Assembly: GCA_903868595.1 (NCBI GenBank)
Contig: CAIPVV010000060.1
Coordinates: 1-64,000, forward strand
Length of the DNA: 64,000 bases
Direction: 5' to 3'
DNA from: an uncultured Pseudomonadota bacterium
GTDB taxonomy: Bacteria; Pseudomonadota; Gammaproteobacteria; Steroidobacterales; Steroidobacteraceae
In this document: in pieces, positions 45,673 through 63,055 of the stretch
How positions within the stretch are numbered: position 1 is the stretch's first letter
Layout of the letters: each line of letters starts with the position of its first letter
Translations under genes and position numbers: made by a program
Notes under the pieces: model-generated
What the model was told of the DNA's origin: nothing
The model's input: only the letters and a program-made list of their open reading frames with translations
The model's database searches: none

Positions 45673-46204
45673 ACCCCGCTTACCCCGCTCGCCTTGTCGA
45701 AAGTCCTTGGAAGCGGGTCGTCTCGAATTTTGCTGATGCCACAACAAACCTGCTGGCCTCGCGGTGGAACGGGTCCTGGGCGGGAGTTTCGGATCCGCCC
45801 GGCCTCATCAGGACAAGCCCGAAGTCTTGCGCGCCCGGTCACGCTGAGGGGCGTCGCCGCGCCGGCGTGGGGTGCGGACATCGCTTGGGCGAGGGCAACC
45901 TGGTCGTGTGCGGACACCGGCCGTTTGCGGCCCACGTTCGCCTGTGGGGGTGTCGCGCTGCGAGCAGGATGCCCCGGGACACGCCGCGGCTGGCTTGCCT
46001 GCGCCGCGGAATGGGTCCCACTGGGCGGTCCTCGCACACCGCAGGGCAGCAGGACCGCAAGAAGTGAGAGGCCCGTCACACCGGCGTGATTCAGCAGGCA
46101 AGAACCACATTCTTGGCACGGTTTCGTTATCGCAAAAAAACGCTGGGAAATGAGTAACAAGACACTCTTTGCAGGCCAGGGAACCTTGTACCTTCGCACC
46201 CAGT
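45673..46204. other. 530-base region upstream of the riboswitch
   Basis: No gene is recognised. The last 70 bases are less GC-rich and must hold the riboswitch promoter. TGGCACG at 46114-46120 matches a sigma-54 -24 element, but the -12 GC does not sit at the required spacing, so I do not call a promoter. Confidence 0.45.
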
Positions 46205-46284
46205 TGTTTAGCAAACCCGTCGAAAGGCGGGGACGCAAAGCCTCCGGTCTAAGGGTCAAGTGACCTACTGATAGCGGGGTTGCC
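46205..46284 (+). promoter_or_regulatory. cyclic-di-GMP-I (GEMM-I) riboswitch aptamer
   Basis: The RNA has the GEMM-I core in order. GCAAACC (46211) leads into a stem CCCGTC/GGCGGG closed by a GAAA tetraloop (46222-46225), then GGACGCAAAGCCTCCGG (46231-46247). A second arm GGTC/GACC follows, then the conserved closing AGCGGGGTTGCC. This matches the Vibrio Vc2-type consensus almost base for base. It lies in the 5' leader of the Ig/FN3 protein gene that starts at 46391, so that gene is very likely controlled by c-di-GMP. Confidence 0.92.
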
Positions 46285-46320
46285 TGCAGAGCGTCAGCCG
46301 TGAGCCTTGGACGCAGTCGT

Positions 46321-46347
46321 CAACCGTCGTGGTTGGTTTGTTTCTTT
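46321..46347 (+). terminator. candidate riboswitch expression-platform terminator
   Basis: CAACC and GGTTG form a five-base stem with a five-base loop, followed by GTTTGTTTCTTT, about 36 bases after the aptamer and ahead of the ribosome binding site. It is a reasonable conditional terminator. Which ligand state forms it cannot be told without folding. Confidence 0.5.
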
Positions 46348-46390
46348 GCTCTCTCATCGGCCGGCTTCGCGGACCTCGCGGAGAATGGTC

Positions 46391-47350
46391 ATGAAAGCTC
46401 TCACTACGTCCACGCGGATTTTCCCGCTCGCACTGCTCGCGCTGCTGGGCCTCGTTGCCATAGCCGCGCCTCAGGCTGCTCACGCGCGCCGCGGCGCTTG
46501 GCGGACCACCAGCACGAGCACCAGCACCACCACCAGCACGAGTACGCTCACCATCTCCGGCACGCCGGTGACGACGGACACCGCGGGCGCCGCCTACGGC
46601 TTTACGCCGACCGTGAGCGCCAGCAGCAGCACCTACAGCTTCTCCATCAGCAACAAGCCGTCCTGGGCGACCTTCAGCATCGCCACGGGCGCGCTGAGCG
46701 GCACACCGGGGACGGCCAACGTCGGCAGTTACAGCAACATCACGATCTCTGTCAGCGACGGCACCAGGGTCGCCTCTCTGCCCGCCTACACGCTGACCGT
46801 CAGTGCGCCGCTGGCCCCGCCGGTCATCAGCGGTACGCCGCCCGCGAGCGTTCTGGCCGCCAACCCCTACAGTTTCACGCCGACCGCCTCCGATCCCAAC
46901 GGTTATCCGCTGACCTTCAGCGTTTCCAACCTGCCGGCCTGGGCGAGCTTCAATACCGCCACCGGGCAGATCAGCGGCACGCCGGCCGCCACGCAGGTGG
47001 GGACCTACAGCAACATCGTCATTGCGGCCAACGACGGCAAATCCACGGCGAGCCTTGCCGCCTTCTCCGTGACGGTGAACGGCGCAGTACTCGGCGCTGC
47101 GACGCTGAGCTGGACGCCGCCGACCCAGAACACCGACGGCACGCCGCTGACGGATCTGGTCGGATACAACATCTACTACGGCACCAACAGCACGGCGCTG
47201 AGCAGCAAGGTCGCGCTGACCAATCCGGGACTCACCGCTTACACCGTCAGTAATCTCAGCACCGGAACCTACTACTTCGCGATCACCGCCGTGGACAGCG
47301 TCGGCGCGGAGAGCGCGCAGAGCAACGTCGGCAGCAAGACGATTCAGTAG
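46391..47350 (+). CDS. exported Ig-like/fibronectin III protein under c-di-GMP riboswitch
   Basis: A 319-residue protein. The ATG at 46391 has GGAGA seven bases upstream; an ATG six bases earlier is the alternative. A signal peptide (cleavage near AHA-RR) and a Ser/Thr repeat linker (about 40-55) are followed by two putative Ig (He_PIG) units containing YSFSISNKPSWATFS and LTFSVSNLPAWASFN with GxLSGTP/GQISGTP endings. A fibronectin III-like domain (about 235-319: LSWTPPTQNTDGTPLTD, YNIYYGTN) closes it. No anchor or PEP-CTERM signal is visible, so it is secreted or held through the matrix. A role in adhesion or biofilm matrix fits the riboswitch. Confidence 0.85.
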   Translation: MKALTTSTRIFPLALLALLGLVAIAAPQAAHARRGAWRTTSTSTSTTTSTSTLTISGTPVTTDTAGAAYGFTPTVSASSSTYSFSISNKPSWATFSIATGALSGTPGTANVGSYSNITISVSDGTRVASLPAYTLTVSAPLAPPVISGTPPASVLAANPYSFTPTASDPNGYPLTFSVSNLPAWASFNTATGQISGTPAATQVGTYSNIVIAANDGKSTASLAAFSVTVNGAVLGAATLSWTPPTQNTDGTPLTDLVGYNIYYGTNSTALSSKVALTNPGLTAYTVSNLSTGTYYFAITAVDSVGAESAQSNVGSKTIQ

Positions 47351-47379: not shown

Positions 47380-47413
47380 AAGGCCCGTCGGTCGCAACCG
47401 GCGGGCCTTTTTC
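47380..47413 (+). terminator. strong intrinsic terminator
   Basis: A 13-base stem (AAGGCCCG-T-CGGT against ACCG-G-CGGGCCTT with one G-U pair) with loop CGCA runs into TTTTT, 29 bases after the Ig/FN3 stop. It ends the riboswitch transcript, so that unit is monocistronic. Confidence 0.9.
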
Positions 47414-47585
47414 AGGAGGGGCACCTGAACAGGGCCGGTACGCCGGGATCGCTTTGTCTCGGGAATCCTCCTTGAGGCCGGATTTCGCAGGTTGCAGTCG
47501 GCGGTGAGCCCCGCCGAGTGACCCCGTTGGCTGATCTATCCATCCGGGGGGGCTTGCGGGCGAGGTGGAAACGGGAAGACGAGGA

Positions 47586-48056
47586 GTGGTGGGCCGCGCT
47601 GCGCTCATCGCGCTGCTAGTCGTGAATGCCCTGGCATTGAGTGCTTGCGGCGGTGTTGGCGTCTCGAGTCAGGGCACGCAGTCGAGCGGTAGGGGTAGCA
47701 CAGCATCCGCCACCGTGGGGGCTACGGCGGGCTCCGGCAGCTCCGCTACCGCTTTAGGTTCTGCATCCAGCACTTCATCAAGGGCTCCGGCAGTAACGGC
47801 TGCCACTAGTTCTAACGCTGCGACGGGCACAACTTCGGTTACAACTGCCGTTGCTGCACCGACGATTTCTGGTTCCGGCGCGGCGACCGTTACGGCCGGT
47901 ACGGCCTACAGCTTCACACCGACAGTGGTGGCCTCCGCCACGACGCCGACCTTCTCGATCGCCAACAATCCTTCCTGGGCGAGCTTCAGCACCTCCACGG
48001 GTAAGCTCTCAGGGTCCTTGCTCGCGGTATTTCAATATTGTGTGTCAATACCTTAG
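47586..48056 (+). pseudogene. lipoprotein with a truncated Ig (He_PIG) domain
   Basis: A GTG start (47586, with GAAGACGAGGA upstream) gives a lipoprotein signal with lipobox LSAC. A long Ser/Thr/Ala linker follows, then an Ig-type unit with YSFTPTV and FSIANNPSWASFSTST, closely resembling the units of the preceding gene. Right after GKLSG, where family members continue with TP and another strand, the frame runs into unrelated sequence and stops at 48056. I infer that the 3' part was lost when the following segment (from about 48015) arrived. It has no riboswitch of its own. Confidence 0.7.
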
Positions 48057-48089: not shown

Positions 48090-48681
48090 ATGCCCCCGAA
48101 GCCTCAACCCGTCGCCCTACGTATTGAGCTGCTAGACATTGCGCCCCTGATTTGGCGCCGTGTGCTGGTGTCAAATCAGTGGACGCTAGGCAGCCTGCAC
48201 AACTACCTGCAGTGGGTCATGGGATGGATGGATACGCATGCCCATGAATTTGACGTTGGCGCCTGACTGGTGGATTCACGAAGTCGGCATGGATTCGGAC
48301 ACGTCCAAATACCGCGATGAGCGCCGAGTCCCGGTGGCGGCCGTCGCGGCGGAGGTGGGGCTCGGCGGAGAAGTGGAATACCGCTACGACATGGGCGACG
48401 GCTGGCGGCACCGGATCGTCATCGAGTCAACGCCTGCGCAATGCTCAACCGGCGAGTTGCCGCTCCCTACGTGCGTGGCGGGTGAGAACGCCTGCCCGCC
48501 CGATGACGTCGGCGGCCCGCATGGCTACGCGCTGTTTCTGGAAATCATAGGCGACCGTGACCACGAGCAACACGAAGACATGATCCGCTGGATCGGCGGG
48601 GTATTCGATCCGAAAGGATTCGACCTGAACCGACTCAACCGCGACTGGAAGGCTGCAAGGGCTCGCCGCTCCAGGGGGTAG
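48090..48681 (+). pseudogene. plasmid pRiA4b ORF-3-like protein, frameshifted
   Basis: ATG 48090 opens VALRIELLDIAPLIWRRV and later YLQWVMGWMDTHAHEFDVG, the N-terminal half of the pRiA4b ORF-3 family, then a TGA at 48264. In the next frame the family continues with DWWIHEVGMDSD, YRYDMGDGWRHRIVIE, CVAGENACPPDDVGGPHGY and WIGGVFDPKGFDLNRLN to 48681. One surplus base near GGCGCC (48259-48264) explains the break. The family is frequent on plasmids and genomic islands; its function is not known. Confidence 0.8.
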
Positions 48682-57165: not shown

Positions 57166-58773
57166 ATGAATGAAATCCTGGAGCGGCTGCTGGATGAAGC
57201 GCGGGGCGCATGGCGATTTCGCTGGACCGGGCTTGCCGTTGCGGCCGTTGCCGCCCTCGGCGGCTGGCTGACCGTCTTCTCGCTGACCGACCTGTACGAA
57301 GCAAAGGCGAGTGTGTTCGTTGATGCACGGACAGCGCTCAAACCGTTACTGCAGGGCCTGACTGTTGAGCAGGATGTGGGAGTACAGCTTAGCTACGTGC
57401 GCCAATCGTGGCTAAGTGGAGCTGAGTTGGAAAAGGTGGCAACGGAATCAGGCATGCTGGATCCGAAGAATACGGATCCGCGCGTCAGGGCGTCCATAAT
57501 CAAGGACCTTTCAGACAAGATTGTGCTCGACAGCCACGGCGGCTATGGACGCGAAGCGGATCGAGATTCTTCCGGGACCACCTATACGTTCAGTTACCGT
57601 GGGCCGGACCGAAAGCTCGCGCTTAGAGTAGTAGATACGTTGGTTACGGCGTTTATCGAAGAAACGCTGGGAGGAAAGCGCAGTGGCACCGAACACGCGC
57701 AACGATTCATCGAGCAGCAGATCCATAGTTACGAGCAGCGTTTGCGCGAGGCCGAAAACCGCTTGGCGGAATTCAAGAAGACCAACCTGGGCTTGATGCC
57801 GACGGAACAGGGCGGCTACTTCACACAGTTGCAAAACGAGATAGACGCTGAAAAGAAGATCGAGAACGACCTTAATCAGGCGATATCGCGTCGTACGGAA
57901 CTCGCCAGGCAGTTGCGCGGCGACGCTGTCATGTCCGCCGCGGGTAGCAGCAATGCACTGGCGGCTGCAGGTGGCGATACCTTGGCCAGGATCAAGGAGG
58001 CGCAGGCACGCCTGGACGAGCTCCGCCTGCGCTTTACCGACAAACATCCGGACGTCACAGCCGCTCGTGCAACGTTGGCGGAATTGCAGGCGCGCCGGGA
58101 TGCGGAGATCGAAAGCCTCAAGCGAGGCGACCTGACCGCGCTGGCAAGCAGCGGTATCGGTAACAACCCCGTCTATCAAAGCATCCAGCTCGCACTGAAT
58201 CAGGCAGATGTCGAGATAGCAGCACTCCGTAGTCAGTTGACCCAGCACCACAGCAAGGCTTCCGAGCTACGTCAACGCCTGGACATCGCGCCCAAGGTGG
58301 AAGCGCAGTACGCGCAGCTAAATCGCGACTACGATATTAACAAAGCGCAGTACACGGCCTTGATGGCGAACTACGAGAAATCCCGCCTCGGCGAGCAAGC
58401 AGACAGCGCCGGTTCTGTTCGCTTCGAGGTGACGCAGGCGCCCACGGCGCCTTACGGAGCTGTCTATCCGGACCGGCCGACCGTGCTATCGGCCATCTTT
58501 GTCGTGTCGTTGCTCCTCGGTCTCGCGGCTTCTTTCGGCCTGCACCTGCTCAACCCGGTGGTAACGTCCCGGCGAAACCTCATGGAGCTCACTAGCATTC
58601 CCATCCTCGGGACGGTTAGCGCGGCATTCCCGCTTGTACGGCACATCCAGACGCGTCGTGAGGCATTAAGATTCGGCGTGGCGGCAAGCGGGCTGCTTGC
58701 CGCCTATGTGCTGGCAATTACAGTTAACTACATAGGGCTAAGGTTCATGCCTGAAGCCCTCTTATCTGGGTGA
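57166..58773 (+). CDS. polysaccharide chain-length determinant, XrtA-system type
   Basis: A 535-residue Wzz/GumC-like inner-membrane protein. The first helix is at about residues 22-44. A large periplasmic coiled-coil region spans about 170-390, with FTDKHPDVTAARATL and the tyrosine-containing LNRDYDINKAQYTALMANYEKSR. The Pro-rich ERPTAPYGAVYPDRPTV-like part precedes the second helix at about 437-460, and a further C-terminal helix is present. It sets chain length and works with the downstream kinase. It starts three bases after the export gene. Confidence 0.88.
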   Translation: MNEILERLLDEARGAWRFRWTGLAVAAVAALGGWLTVFSLTDLYEAKASVFVDARTALKPLLQGLTVEQDVGVQLSYVRQSWLSGAELEKVATESGMLDPKNTDPRVRASIIKDLSDKIVLDSHGGYGREADRDSSGTTYTFSYRGPDRKLALRVVDTLVTAFIEETLGGKRSGTEHAQRFIEQQIHSYEQRLREAENRLAEFKKTNLGLMPTEQGGYFTQLQNEIDAEKKIENDLNQAISRRTELARQLRGDAVMSAAGSSNALAAAGGDTLARIKEAQARLDELRLRFTDKHPDVTAARATLAELQARRDAEIESLKRGDLTALASSGIGNNPVYQSIQLALNQADVEIAALRSQLTQHHSKASELRQRLDIAPKVEAQYAQLNRDYDINKAQYTALMANYEKSRLGEQADSAGSVRFEVTQAPTAPYGAVYPDRPTVLSAIFVVSLLLGLAASFGLHLLNPVVTSRRNLMELTSIPILGTVSAAFPLVRHIQTRREALRFGVAASGLLAAYVLAITVNYIGLRFMPEALLSG

Positions 58774-58776
58774 GCA

Positions 58777-59685
58777 ATGAGCCTAGTCGAACGCGCCATT
58801 GGGAAAATAAAACGGGGCGGTAGCTCCACATCCGCAGGCGCCGGAACTGCCGGAACCGAAGCAGGGGCAGCACTGGGTCCACTGGCGAGCGAGCCGGCCC
58901 CGCCGCAGGCCGGACTTGCGGTGGAATTGCCGACCGCTGCTCCACCGCGAGTCTTGATCGACCGCGATGGTTTGTGTGCTGCGGGATACCTGCCTGAGGT
59001 CACCCAGAATAGGCAGTTCGCGGATCAATACAGAAGAATCAAGCGTCCCCTGACTGCGGCAGTGAAGACGGATAAGGAACCTGCCGTGGGCCATGCACGA
59101 GTCATTCTCGTGACCAGCGCTCTTCCGGGCGATGGCAAGACATTTACCAGCATTAATCTCGCGCTCAGCTTGGCTCGCGAAAAGGATACCTCCGTAGTTC
59201 TTGTCGATGCCGACGCCGCGAGGCCGCAGGTCAGCAGAATATTTGGAGTTGATGCCGAACCCGGTATTACTAACGCGCTCGTTGACCCAAACGTTAATGT
59301 GGAATCTCTGATCCTGCAGACGGATGTGGAAGGGCTATCGATCTTGCCCGCTGGCGAGCGAAGCGATCACGCCAACGAATTGTTCGCAAGTAAGCGCATG
59401 ACTGAGGTCATAACGCGGATTCTGGCTCGGGATCCGCGACGCATAGTGCTGTTTGATTCCTCGCCGCTGCTTGCGGCGACGGAGTCGCGGGTTTTGGCGG
59501 GACTGGCTGGGCAAATATTGCTGGTAGTTCGCTGCGGCAAGACACCGCAGCATGCGGTCTTGGATGCACTCAATCACATCGGATCGGAAAATGCGGTCAG
59601 CCTGATACTTAACGAGGCAAGGCCTAGCCTTGCCGAGGGGTTGAGCGGCTACGGCACGTATGGAGCTTATGGGCATGACGCTTAG
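58777..59685 (+). CDS. tyrosine-protein autokinase, XrtA-system type
   Basis: A 302-residue cytoplasmic BY-kinase. Walker A is SALPGDGKTFTSINLA (about 114-129), Walker A' VVLVDADAARPQ and Walker B IVLFDSSPLL. The C-terminus carries the tyrosine cluster GYGTYGAYG that is autophosphorylated. The N-terminal 60 residues are Ala/Gly/Pro-rich. It controls polymer length with the upstream co-polymerase. Its stop overlaps the next start by 11 bases. Confidence 0.9.
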   Translation: MSLVERAIGKIKRGGSSTSAGAGTAGTEAGAALGPLASEPAPPQAGLAVELPTAAPPRVLIDRDGLCAAGYLPEVTQNRQFADQYRRIKRPLTAAVKTDKEPAVGHARVILVTSALPGDGKTFTSINLALSLAREKDTSVVLVDADAARPQVSRIFGVDAEPGITNALVDPNVNVESLILQTDVEGLSILPAGERSDHANELFASKRMTEVITRILARDPRRIVLFDSSPLLAATESRVLAGLAGQILLVVRCGKTPQHAVLDALNHIGSENAVSLILNEARPSLAEGLSGYGTYGAYGHDA

Positions 59686-61039
59686 CCAACGACGCTGCTT
59701 GTATATCGTTGCCCTGACGATATTACCGATCTGCACCCAAAGCGCTGAATTGGCCTTGAGCGGCGATATTGGTGTCGGCCGAAGCGGAAACGTACAACGC
59801 GTTTCTTCGGGGGGTAGCAGTGACAACATCGAGACGCTGGGCGTCCAGTTCGCGGTGCTGCAGGACTCGGACAGGTACTCCTTGAATCTGCTTGGAGATC
59901 TCGCCGGCTATCGGTACGCAAATCGAACCTACAATGATCAGCTCTCCGGAACTGCCAACGGTTCGGCCGCGCTGCATATCATTCCCGAAGCATTGTCATG
60001 GGTTGTAGAAGATAACTTTGGCCAAGCTCGGCGTGACCTGTTCACAGTGGTAACGCCGATTAACTCCGAAAACATCAACTACTTTTCTACCGGTCCAGAC
60101 ATCAGCCTGCGATTTGACGCCAACATGCGACTCCTGGCGCACCTTCGTTATGGCCGTGTCGACTACGAACTCAGCCCCTATGGGACCGATGATTACGAGG
60201 CGCTAGTTGGTCTCGAGCGAAACCTCAGTTCCTCAAGTACTCTGTCCCTGGATCTTAGCGATCGGCATGTTGTACCTGAGCAGGCTTCCGGCTCTCCGAA
60301 ATACGACAGCGAGAGGGCGTTTATCCGCTACTCAGTGAGAGGTAGCGTGACCACCGCTGGTCTGGATGTTGGTGCGTCTCGCCTAGTCGAATACAACAAG
60401 ACCGATACGGGGCCGTTAATACTGGCAACTGTTACCCGGAAATTGAGCGGATATTCGTCAGTAACGCTTCAGGCCGGGCGTGAATATACGGACGCAGCCG
60501 GGGCGCTGGCGACAACTACCGGTGCGCCAGCTCTCACGGCAATAAGCAATCTGACGGCGGTCGGGGGTAGCGGAGTCCTTGCGATCACGCAATCCGCTAC
60601 ACCATATGTCCATAATTTTGGGCAATTGTCGCTGAACATGGATGGGCTAAGGACGCATGTTCGGTTTGGTTTGTCTGGAGCAGACGACCGGTATCTAGGC
60701 CAAGCTCAATTGGACCGGAAGACATATGCCGCAACGGGCATTGTCACTCGAGCGCTGACGCCGAAACTTACGATTCGTGTCGATGGCAGTTATACGAGAA
60801 ACGAATTCCAAACCAGATCTAATGACTACCGGGAGGCCAGCGGAATACTGTCGCTAAATTGGGCCGTAGGCCGCCTGCTGTCGCTCCAACTGTCAGGTGA
60901 AGAATATCGCTACTCCAGTAGCGGCGCAGGTAACTCGGTAACAGAGCCTAGGGTCTGGCTGAAATTGACGTATGGGCAACGGGCGCTACGTCAGTTTGCG
61001 CCATCCCGCGCGCAGTTTGCCTCGTTCGCAACGAACTGA
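59675..61039 (+). CDS. outer-membrane beta-barrel protein, PEP-CTERM system-associated type
   Basis: A 454-residue protein with a signal peptide (cleavage near TQSA-EL). The mature sequence is made of alternating hydrophobic strands rich in Tyr, Asn and Ser (for example YRYANRTYNDQLSG, LMPY-free turns, LSLQLSGEEYRYSSS), as in large outer-membrane barrels. Such a barrel gene follows the kinase in XrtA EPS loci and is thought to form the outer-membrane exit or anchor. ATG 59675 is preferred over 59660 because the signal peptide then begins normally. Confidence 0.78.
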   Translation: MTLSQRRCLYIVALTILPICTQSAELALSGDIGVGRSGNVQRVSSGGSSDNIETLGVQFAVLQDSDRYSLNLLGDLAGYRYANRTYNDQLSGTANGSAALHIIPEALSWVVEDNFGQARRDLFTVVTPINSENINYFSTGPDISLRFDANMRLLAHLRYGRVDYELSPYGTDDYEALVGLERNLSSSSTLSLDLSDRHVVPEQASGSPKYDSERAFIRYSVRGSVTTAGLDVGASRLVEYNKTDTGPLILATVTRKLSGYSSVTLQAGREYTDAAGALATTTGAPALTAISNLTAVGGSGVLAITQSATPYVHNFGQLSLNMDGLRTHVRFGLSGADDRYLGQAQLDRKTYAATGIVTRALTPKLTIRVDGSYTRNEFQTRSNDYREASGILSLNWAVGRLLSLQLSGEEYRYSSSGAGNSVTEPRVWLKLTYGQRALRQFAPSRAQFASFATN

Positions 61040-61043
61040 GCAT

Positions 61044-61901
61044 ATGATTAATGCGATGACGGTAGACGTGGAAGACTACTTCCACGTCGCCGCACTGTCC
61101 AAGGTCATCCATCCTGACCAATGGGACACGCTTGAATACAGGGTTGAACGATCAACGGATAGGCTGCTTGGCATCTTTTCCGACGCCGGCATTACGGCCA
61201 CGTTCTTCGTCCTTGGATGGGTCGCAAAGAAGAGTCCGCAGCTTGTCAGGGCGATTCATGCGGCCGGTCACGAAGTAGCCAGCCACGGGATGTCCCACAA
61301 GCTTGTCTATAACCAGAGCGAAGCTGAATTCCGCGAAGAAACTCAAGAGTCCAAAGCTTGCCTTGAGGACCTAATAGCAGGACCCGTTCTCGGCTATCGA
61401 GCATCGACATATTCAATCACCAGCCGCTCTCTATGGGCACTCGACGTGCTTCACGAGCTGGGTTTTGAGTACGATTCAAGCATATTCCCGATAAGGCACG
61501 ACCTATACGGAATTCCCGATGCCCCTAAGAGGCCGGGCTACGTGACGACACCCAGAGGGCATAAGATCGTCGAATTCCCTATGTGCGCTGCCAAGCTCCT
61601 TGGGCTCGACGTACCTGTATCGGGCGGCGGATATTTTCGGTTGTTGCCATACCAAGTGACGCAGTGGGGATTGCGCAAGCTCAACAACCATGAGCAGCGT
61701 CCGTTTGCCTTCTATCTCCACCCTTGGGAAATCGATCCAGGCCAACCGCGGATACGAGCCAGCCTGTTGTCACGATTTCGCCACTACACGAACCTATCAG
61801 TCACCGAGCAACGGTTGAGAGTCCTGCTGCGGGAGTTCAAGTTCTCTTCCATGTCTGCTGTCTTGTGCGAACTCGGCCTCCTAGCGCCATCTGCGCGATA
61901 A
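61044..61901 (+). CDS. polysaccharide deacetylase, XrtA-system type
   Basis: A 285-residue NodB-type deacetylase. MTVDVEDYFHV at the N-terminus supplies the catalytic and metal Asp residues; GHEVASHGMSHKL supplies the metal histidines; YRASTYSITSRSLWALDVL and FAFYLHPWEIDP complete the NodB motifs. The DUF3473 tail typical of XrtA-linked deacetylases is present. It would remove N-acetyl groups from the EPS. It lies five bases after the barrel gene. Confidence 0.9.
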   Translation: MINAMTVDVEDYFHVAALSKVIHPDQWDTLEYRVERSTDRLLGIFSDAGITATFFVLGWVAKKSPQLVRAIHAAGHEVASHGMSHKLVYNQSEAEFREETQESKACLEDLIAGPVLGYRASTYSITSRSLWALDVLHELGFEYDSSIFPIRHDLYGIPDAPKRPGYVTTPRGHKIVEFPMCAAKLLGLDVPVSGGGYFRLLPYQVTQWGLRKLNNHEQRPFAFYLHPWEIDPGQPRIRASLLSRFRHYTNLSVTEQRLRVLLREFKFSSMSAVLCELGLLAPSAR

Positions 61902-61903
61902 GC

Positions 61904-63055
61904 ATGCTCGGACTAACCTGCATATTCGCGCTAATTCTGGGCCTATATCCCTTCGTCCTTTACCCGTTCTTCGCAGCGCTTGTAGGGCGTCTGCTATACA
62001 AGCCCATCCACCGTGATAAGACCTATCTGCCTCGCGTTACAATAATAACTGCTGCCTACAACGAAGCGCGTCATATAGAAGCGACTATAAGGGACAAACT
62101 TGCCCAGGACTACCCGCCGAATCTGATCCAGATGATCGTCGTGTCCGATGAGTCGAGCGACGGTACTGACGAGATAGTTAGATCGATACATGCCGAGGAT
62201 GAACGCGTCACTCTTCTTCGCCAGGATCCAAGACAAGGAAAGACCGCGGCACTGAACCTCGCGGTGCCCTACGCGATGGGGGAAATTATCGTCTTCGCAG
62301 ACGCCAACTCTCTTTATCAGCCACACGCCATCCGCGCGCTAGTGAGCAACTTCGCAGATCCGCAGGTCGGCTACGTTTCCGGAAAGATGCAGTACGTGAA
62401 TCCTGACGGATCAGTAATCGGCGATGGCTGTTCCGCCTACATGCGTTACGAAAATTGGCTTCGCGATACGGAAACCAGAATTGGTTCAATTGTCGGGGTC
62501 GACGGTGGGATTGATGCCGTTAGAGCCGAATGCTACCAGCCCATGCGCCCCGACCAGTTGCCGGATTTCGTCTTGCCGCTGTGTGTTGTCGAGAAGAGGC
62601 TGCGTGTAATCTATGAGCCGGAAGCGATCCTGAGGGAAGATGCGCTGAACACACAAGCGTCCGAATATAGAATGCGCGTGCGCGTTGCGTTGCGGGCCTT
62701 CTGGGCACTGTGGGACAAGCGCAATCTTCTGAATCCCATTCGATACGGGATATTCTCCTGGCAGCTAGCCTCCCATAAATGGCTCAGATATCTCGCATTC
62801 ATTCCTCTAACCGTAGCTGCGCTAATCGACTGGGCTCTCGTCGGATCTGGTCCGGTATATCAACTTATGGCTCTCGGCCAGTTGGTATTCTTGGCGCTAT
62901 GGATAATGGCTGCACGAGGCAAGAGGGAAATATCAGGCGTACCGCTGCCCGCACTGTGCCAGTATTTTGCCTTGCTAAACCTCGCATCCGCTGTGGCGTT
63001 CTGGGAATTCATAAACGGCAGGAAGAGGACGCTGTGGCAGCCGCGGCAGGGTTAG
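61904..63055 (+). CDS. family 2 glycosyltransferase, membrane
   Basis: A 383-residue enzyme. One N-terminal helix is followed by a GT-A domain: VTIITAAYNEARHIEATI, VVSDESSDGTDEIV, RQGKTAALNLAV, IVFADANSLYQP (DxD-like), VDGGIDAVR. Three hydrophobic segments (about 290-380) form a C-terminal membrane region. It is likely a polymerising or priming transferase of the EPS pathway. It begins two bases after the deacetylase stop. Confidence 0.88.
   Translation: MLGLTCIFALILGLYPFVLYPFFAALVGRLLYKPIHRDKTYLPRVTIITAAYNEARHIEATIRDKLAQDYPPNLIQMIVVSDESSDGTDEIVRSIHAEDERVTLLRQDPRQGKTAALNLAVPYAMGEIIVFADANSLYQPHAIRALVSNFADPQVGYVSGKMQYVNPDGSVIGDGCSAYMRYENWLRDTETRIGSIVGVDGGIDAVRAECYQPMRPDQLPDFVLPLCVVEKRLRVIYEPEAILREDALNTQASEYRMRVRVALRAFWALWDKRNLLNPIRYGIFSWQLASHKWLRYLAFIPLTVAALIDWALVGSGPVYQLMALGQLVFLALWIMAARGKREISGVPLPALCQYFALLNLASAVAFWEFINGRKRTLWQPRQG

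Follow-up and report, generated by a model that had tools for sequence, protein, structure and literature searches.

A c-di-GMP-I riboswitch before an exported He_PIG/FN3 protein gene of a Steroidobacteraceae bacterium, with a probable translational OFF function

In which direction, and by what means, would a c-di-GMP-sensing RNA govern the gene of an exported surface protein? The question is raised by one locus in a stretch of 64,000 nucleotides (referred to here as the window) from an uncultured Steroidobacteraceae bacterium, where the initial annotation had placed a single-gene c-di-GMP switch in front of an Ig/FN3 protein and read it as a biofilm switch. We consider it probable that the leader is a c-di-GMP-I riboswitch acting on the translation of the gene behind it, which encodes an exported He_PIG/FN3 protein, and that c-di-GMP most likely switches this translation OFF. 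The computed support for this reading consists of the aptamer itself, its recurrence before the He_PIG/FN3 family, the complementarity between aptamer and expression platform, and a lower accessibility of the Shine-Dalgarno (SD) sequence with a folded aptamer in pooled leaders. The aptamer, the gene and its downstream flank lie as follows.

46200 to 46287, forward strand: c-di-GMP-I (GEMM-I) riboswitch aptamer (RF01051, 72.4 bits, E 3e-12, model positions 1-87)
46391 to 47350, forward strand: gene of a 319-residue protein, predicted to be exported, with two He_PIG units and an FN3-like C-terminal domain; orthologues begin MKGIT
46817 to 47080, forward strand: second He_PIG domain (PF05345), the best-scoring stretch, residues 143-230
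47099 to 47323, forward strand: FN3-like domain (PF00041, 23.8 bits), residues 237-311
47380 to 47413, forward strand: intrinsic terminator 3' of the gene, with a U run after its 13-bp stem (-24.8 kcal/mol)
47565 to 48056, forward strand: truncated paralogue that starts like a lipoprotein and stays homologous for about 66 residues

The covariance-model search that had been proposed as a check on the aptamer, run over the 64-kb window, returned a full-length RF01051 match well above the gathering cut-off of 35 bits. Two features on which the claim of a GEMM-I aptamer had been built, a GAAA tetraloop and a CAAAGCCTCCGG core, are present, and the start of the element moves from 46205 to 46200. 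In the same search, from which lower-scoring matches within a clan were omitted, Rfam at gathering thresholds gave no other match in the window, and c-di-GMP-I-GGC (RF03167) was rejected as the identity of this aptamer since it lost the clan competition to RF01051. The ligand-contact nucleotides, which we take to be G20, A47 and C92 in Vc2 numbering, are all kept by inspection and in the covariance-model alignment; as read from the sequence they fit c-di-GMP, and the aptamer would be expected to bind it. A cGAMP-type GEMM-I variant was also considered and set aside, as position 20 is a G, the c-di-GMP type. This position is described as a factor in selectivity and not as a hard filter (PMC9262584). 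The gene follows on the same strand, its AUG separated from the aptamer by 103 nt; no sigma-70-like promoter was detected for the leader.

The start codon was placed at 46391 because of the SD sequence CGGAGA (46379-46384) and the orthologues that begin MKGIT. Residues 1-32 read by inspection as a signal peptide, from which export is predicted, and the whole protein scores 70.8 bits for PF05345 (cut-off 24) in two stretches, in agreement with the exported protein with two He_PIG units that had been described. The FN3 domain claimed alongside them survives in part: an FN3-like end is present, but its score lies slightly below the PF00041 cut-off of 25, against 35.5 for a paralogue in the same genome. 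Anchoring through a PEP-CTERM sorting motif was considered and dropped, as Pfam gave no match to the motif up to E 1, and the protein ends in SNVGSKTIQ. A role in the matrix or in adhesion is suggested by the domains. The strong terminator reported past the gene was recovered. Beyond it, the truncated paralogue is 56% identical to the window protein over residues 40-105, has neither a Pfam match nor an aptamer of its own (no second Rfam match), and breaks near 48017, where unrelated sequence begins; the next open reading frame (48238-48681) resembles by eye the plasmid pRiA4b ORF-3 family proteins. A search for copies on plasmids yielded no near match. The EPS locus mentioned earlier does exist, as an EPS-type cluster at 57166-63055 (a chain-length (GNVR) protein, a ParA-like ATPase, a BBP2_2 porin, a DUF3473 polysaccharide deacetylase and a family-2 glycosyltransferase), but nothing ties it to the riboswitch.

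The idea of a single-gene regulon did not hold, as the genome contains four c-di-GMP-I aptamers, three of them before paralogous He_PIG/FN3 proteins and one before a SPOR-domain protein. Two lie only 990 bases apart on contig C43, each upstream of a paralogous He_PIG/FN3 lipoprotein; the SPOR-associated aptamer lies on contig C21 (G000:C21:14306-14393). The SPOR-domain protein carries an FVINLCASTTP stretch, and a similar arrangement is seen in many relatives; a GGDEF match (C21:15880-16347) is found about 1.5 kb from this aptamer. Near pilM of the same genome (C60:90313) there is none of the four aptamers. In other genera of the family this type IV pilus gene is a frequent c-di-GMP-I target, with aptamers some 230-340 bases 5' of it (loci L058, L059, L065, L074, L077, L091, L096 and L111).

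The pairing of aptamer and exported He_PIG/FN3 protein recurs in many relatives. c-di-GMP-I aptamers are present in 52 of 60 related genomes, and among the 78 He_PIG/FN3 loci in named public contigs, 72 of which have a readable upstream frame (gene start), an aptamer of the c-di-GMP-I or c-di-GMP-I-GGC type stands immediately 5' of the gene in 52. Loci that lack one belong mainly to more remote relatives, among them Thiodiazotropha and further symbionts of clams. The named matches for the family are largely Steroidobacteraceae, and cultured strains carry it as well (Steroidobacter agaridevorans, Peristeroidobacter soli and Povalibacter uvarum). Tandem aptamers, spaced by about 200-270 bases and frequently combining a c-di-GMP-I with a c-di-GMP-I-GGC aptamer, occur 5' of the He_PIG gene at L117, L123, L139 and L171 and 3' of it at L119, L124, L141, L144 and L149.

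How folding of the aptamer could reach the ribosome-binding site is suggested by the region between aptamer and gene, in which the following elements were recognised.

46313 to 46371, forward strand: expression platform antisense to aptamer nucleotides 35-88 (the zipper), 44 pairs
46316 to 46325, forward strand: GUCGUCAACC motif, kept in most leaders of the genus (alignment of seven leaders)
46319 to 46337, forward strand: weak hairpin with a U-rich tract (-5.9 kcal/mol), a doubtful terminator
46354 to 46394, forward strand: extended hairpin closing SD and AUG (minimum free energy fold with the aptamer locked)
46379 to 46384, forward strand: Shine-Dalgarno sequence CGGAGA (anti-SD duplex scan)

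Antisense pairing of the platform with the aptamer from about position 35 onward emerged in unconstrained folds of related leaders. In seven leaders of the genus it covers aptamer positions 35 to 87-91 with 38-45 pairs each and in near-identical register. The GUCGUCAACC motif is complementary to the 3' end of the aptamer, GGUUGCC(G/U)GC, and the aptamer core GCAAAGCC has its complement in GGCUUCGC (46364-46371), which forms the 5' arm of the SD hairpin. The inner stem of the extended hairpin (46365-46383, CUUCGCG-GACCU-CGCGGAG) is conserved as CUUCGC/GCGGAG in four further leaders of the genus (C62a, C62b, C67 and C197). The window duplex reaches -48.4 kcal/mol, where shuffled sequences average -37.2 (sd 4.0) and 20 in 2000 do as well, a moderate significance; expressed as z-scores against 2000 shuffles, the seven zippers stand at -2.8 (window), -4.9 (C62a), -5.0 (C62b), -1.6 (C67, a weak one, matched by 130 of the 2000), -4.5 (C197), -2.2 (G006) and -3.2 (C43b). 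Own aptamer-platform pairs are better than swapped ones over the whole 3' half (permutation p 0.0002) and over the variable P3 part alone (p 0.0097), which we take as evidence for co-variation between aptamer and platform within these seven leaders, a small set of related sequences that are not independent of one another. When duplex energies were compared in this way across the He_PIG leaders of the entire family, own and swapped pairs did not differ significantly (p 0.13); in other genera, many leaders show no zipper. The possibility that the platform conceals an aptamer on the antisense strand was discarded, as leader L037 gave no opposite-strand c-di-GMP match up to E 10.

These pairings suggest a simple exchange of partners. 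In the absence of c-di-GMP, the antisense strand of the platform would pair with the aptamer's 3' half; this pairing would take up GGCUUCGC and thereby keep both SD and AUG accessible. Once c-di-GMP is bound, the aptamer would fold and release GGCUUCGC, which could then pair with the SD, and translation would stop.

The predicted direction was assessed in 52 He_PIG leaders by computing how accessible the SD is in the free ensemble and again with the aptamer pairs enforced. With the aptamer locked, real platforms gave 0.227 and shuffled ones 0.326 (p 9e-5); the folding model takes no account of ligand, kinetics or tertiary contacts, the start codons of relatives were chosen partly by SD strength, and real and control leaders shared an identical SD. 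The free ensembles did not differ (0.310 against 0.327 shuffled, p 0.42). The free-minus-locked difference was 0.082 in real leaders versus 0.002 in shuffled ones (p 1.6e-4), and it was also larger than the 0.022 of swapped platforms (free 0.245, locked 0.223; p 3.8e-4). As the drop exceeds both controls, folding of the aptamer would close the SD, and an OFF switch is predicted; the biofilm-on direction implied earlier is thus reversed, with c-di-GMP expected to repress translation. The 12 GGDEF matches in the genome were counted in favour of this reading, and in cells, too, the switch would presumably be OFF. In two leaders of another genus (L104 and L105, G031:C72) the AUG follows immediately on the aptamer and the SD lies within it, an arrangement that points to an OFF switch and is hard to read otherwise. 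In L105 the conserved GCGGGG has become GCGGAG, making an SD inside the aptamer, and the opposite strand is changed to match (GCUUCC).

The leader of the window is a less clear case than the pooled set. Its SD and AUG are unpaired with probabilities of 0.17 and 0.05 when the aptamer is folded and of 0.77 and 0.86 in the zipper state, as the OFF reading would have it, and its unconstrained fold contains neither aptamer nor zipper and leaves SD and AUG closed (0.17 for the SD). Relative to the native-aptamer state, the zipper costs about 4 kcal/mol, or 1.2 when the core pairing alone is counted. The closed SD in the free ensemble and this energy gap suggest that the platform copy of the window may be weakened. 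A rival reading is a decayed switch, in which the aptamer is intact but the platform of the window has ceased to switch, leaving the gene weakly expressed or silent at all times: accessibility is the same in the free and native ensembles, the zipper is weaker than those of C62a, C62b and C197, and the adjacent paralogue is broken. We nevertheless regard decay as unlikely, given an aptamer that is fully conserved at its high score, a complementarity that beats 99% of shuffles, and an intact gene with its terminator in place; the window's own copy presumably still switches.

Two further readings accept a working switch and dispute its sign or its mechanism. An ON switch, by which c-di-GMP raises protein output, is what one would expect of a matrix or adhesion protein, since adhesion is often raised by c-di-GMP; Bc2 of Bacillus thuringiensis is such a switch, turning a collagen adhesion protein ON (PMC4933901), and in some individual leaders the modelled effect of locking the aptamer is nil or even reversed. 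Against this, locking closes the SD in the pooled leaders, and in relatives whose SD lies inside or right after the aptamer the ligand should block ribosomes, so that we find an ON switch quite unlikely. Still less probable, in our view, is transcription attenuation, in which the hairpin at 46319-46337 and its U-rich tract, likewise picked out by the initial annotation, would form an intrinsic terminator, with the ligand choosing between terminator and anti-terminator. The necessary parts can be found: a stem of 7-8 bp is followed by UUUGUUUCUUU, its 5' arm, CAACC, has a choice between a local partner and GGUUG of the aptamer (which would make the ligand an OFF signal here too), and terminator platforms are known in the c-di-GMP-I class (PMC9262584, PMC4933901). 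Yet the leader region holds two terminator-like sites where shuffled sequences lead one to expect 1.6, the hairpin is weak, and the leader alignment shows it to be unconserved in orthologous leaders; for these reasons a terminator platform was rejected. Control of translation, most likely by an OFF switch, remains our preferred reading.

If that reading is true, c-di-GMP would be tied in a conserved way to an exported Ig/FN3 family that has been little studied, in a direction opposite to the familiar "more c-di-GMP, more adhesin", through a platform that unzips nearly the whole 3' half of its aptamer and is easily testable. A more far-reaching proposal, which we put forward tentatively and would not yet back at even odds, is that the leaders of the genus represent an unreported kind of platform: a near full-length antisense of the aptamer 3' half that co-evolves with it even in the variable loop and unzips it to free the SD, as part of a conserved c-di-GMP OFF regulon for He_PIG/FN3 proteins in Steroidobacteraceae-like bacteria. 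The aptamer-length antisense platform may be a new variant, judged against a literature search that covered few subscription papers; within the same bounds, nothing relevant was found on c-di-GMP riboswitches with He_PIG/FN3 targets or in Steroidobacter.

Among known systems, the window case is a further member of the c-di-GMP-I class, and neither the aptamer class nor OFF control of translation is new. The sister Rfam model c-di-GMP-I-GGC (RF03167), which three papers name once each, one of them listing it only as a class, is the best model for several aptamers before the He_PIG/FN3 family in relatives, whereas the window aptamer scores best with RF01051. The cGAMP (c-AMP-GMP) variants of GEMM-I, for example that of Geobacter pilM, share the scaffold, and PilM genes are also c-di-GMP-I targets in the bacterial family of the window, but the window aptamer differs from them in its G at position 20 (Vc2 numbering). 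Bc2, which belongs to the same aptamer class and likewise stands upstream of a surface adhesion protein gene (B. thuringiensis cap), is a transcriptional ON switch acting through a terminator (PMC4933901), in contrast to the translational OFF control predicted here. The closest parallel in mode of action is Vc2 of Vibrio cholerae tfoY, an off switch of the same class, reported to restrict translation once c-di-GMP is bound (PMC7371385): it works as proposed for the window leader, but its target is a transcriptional regulator, while that of the window is a surface protein.
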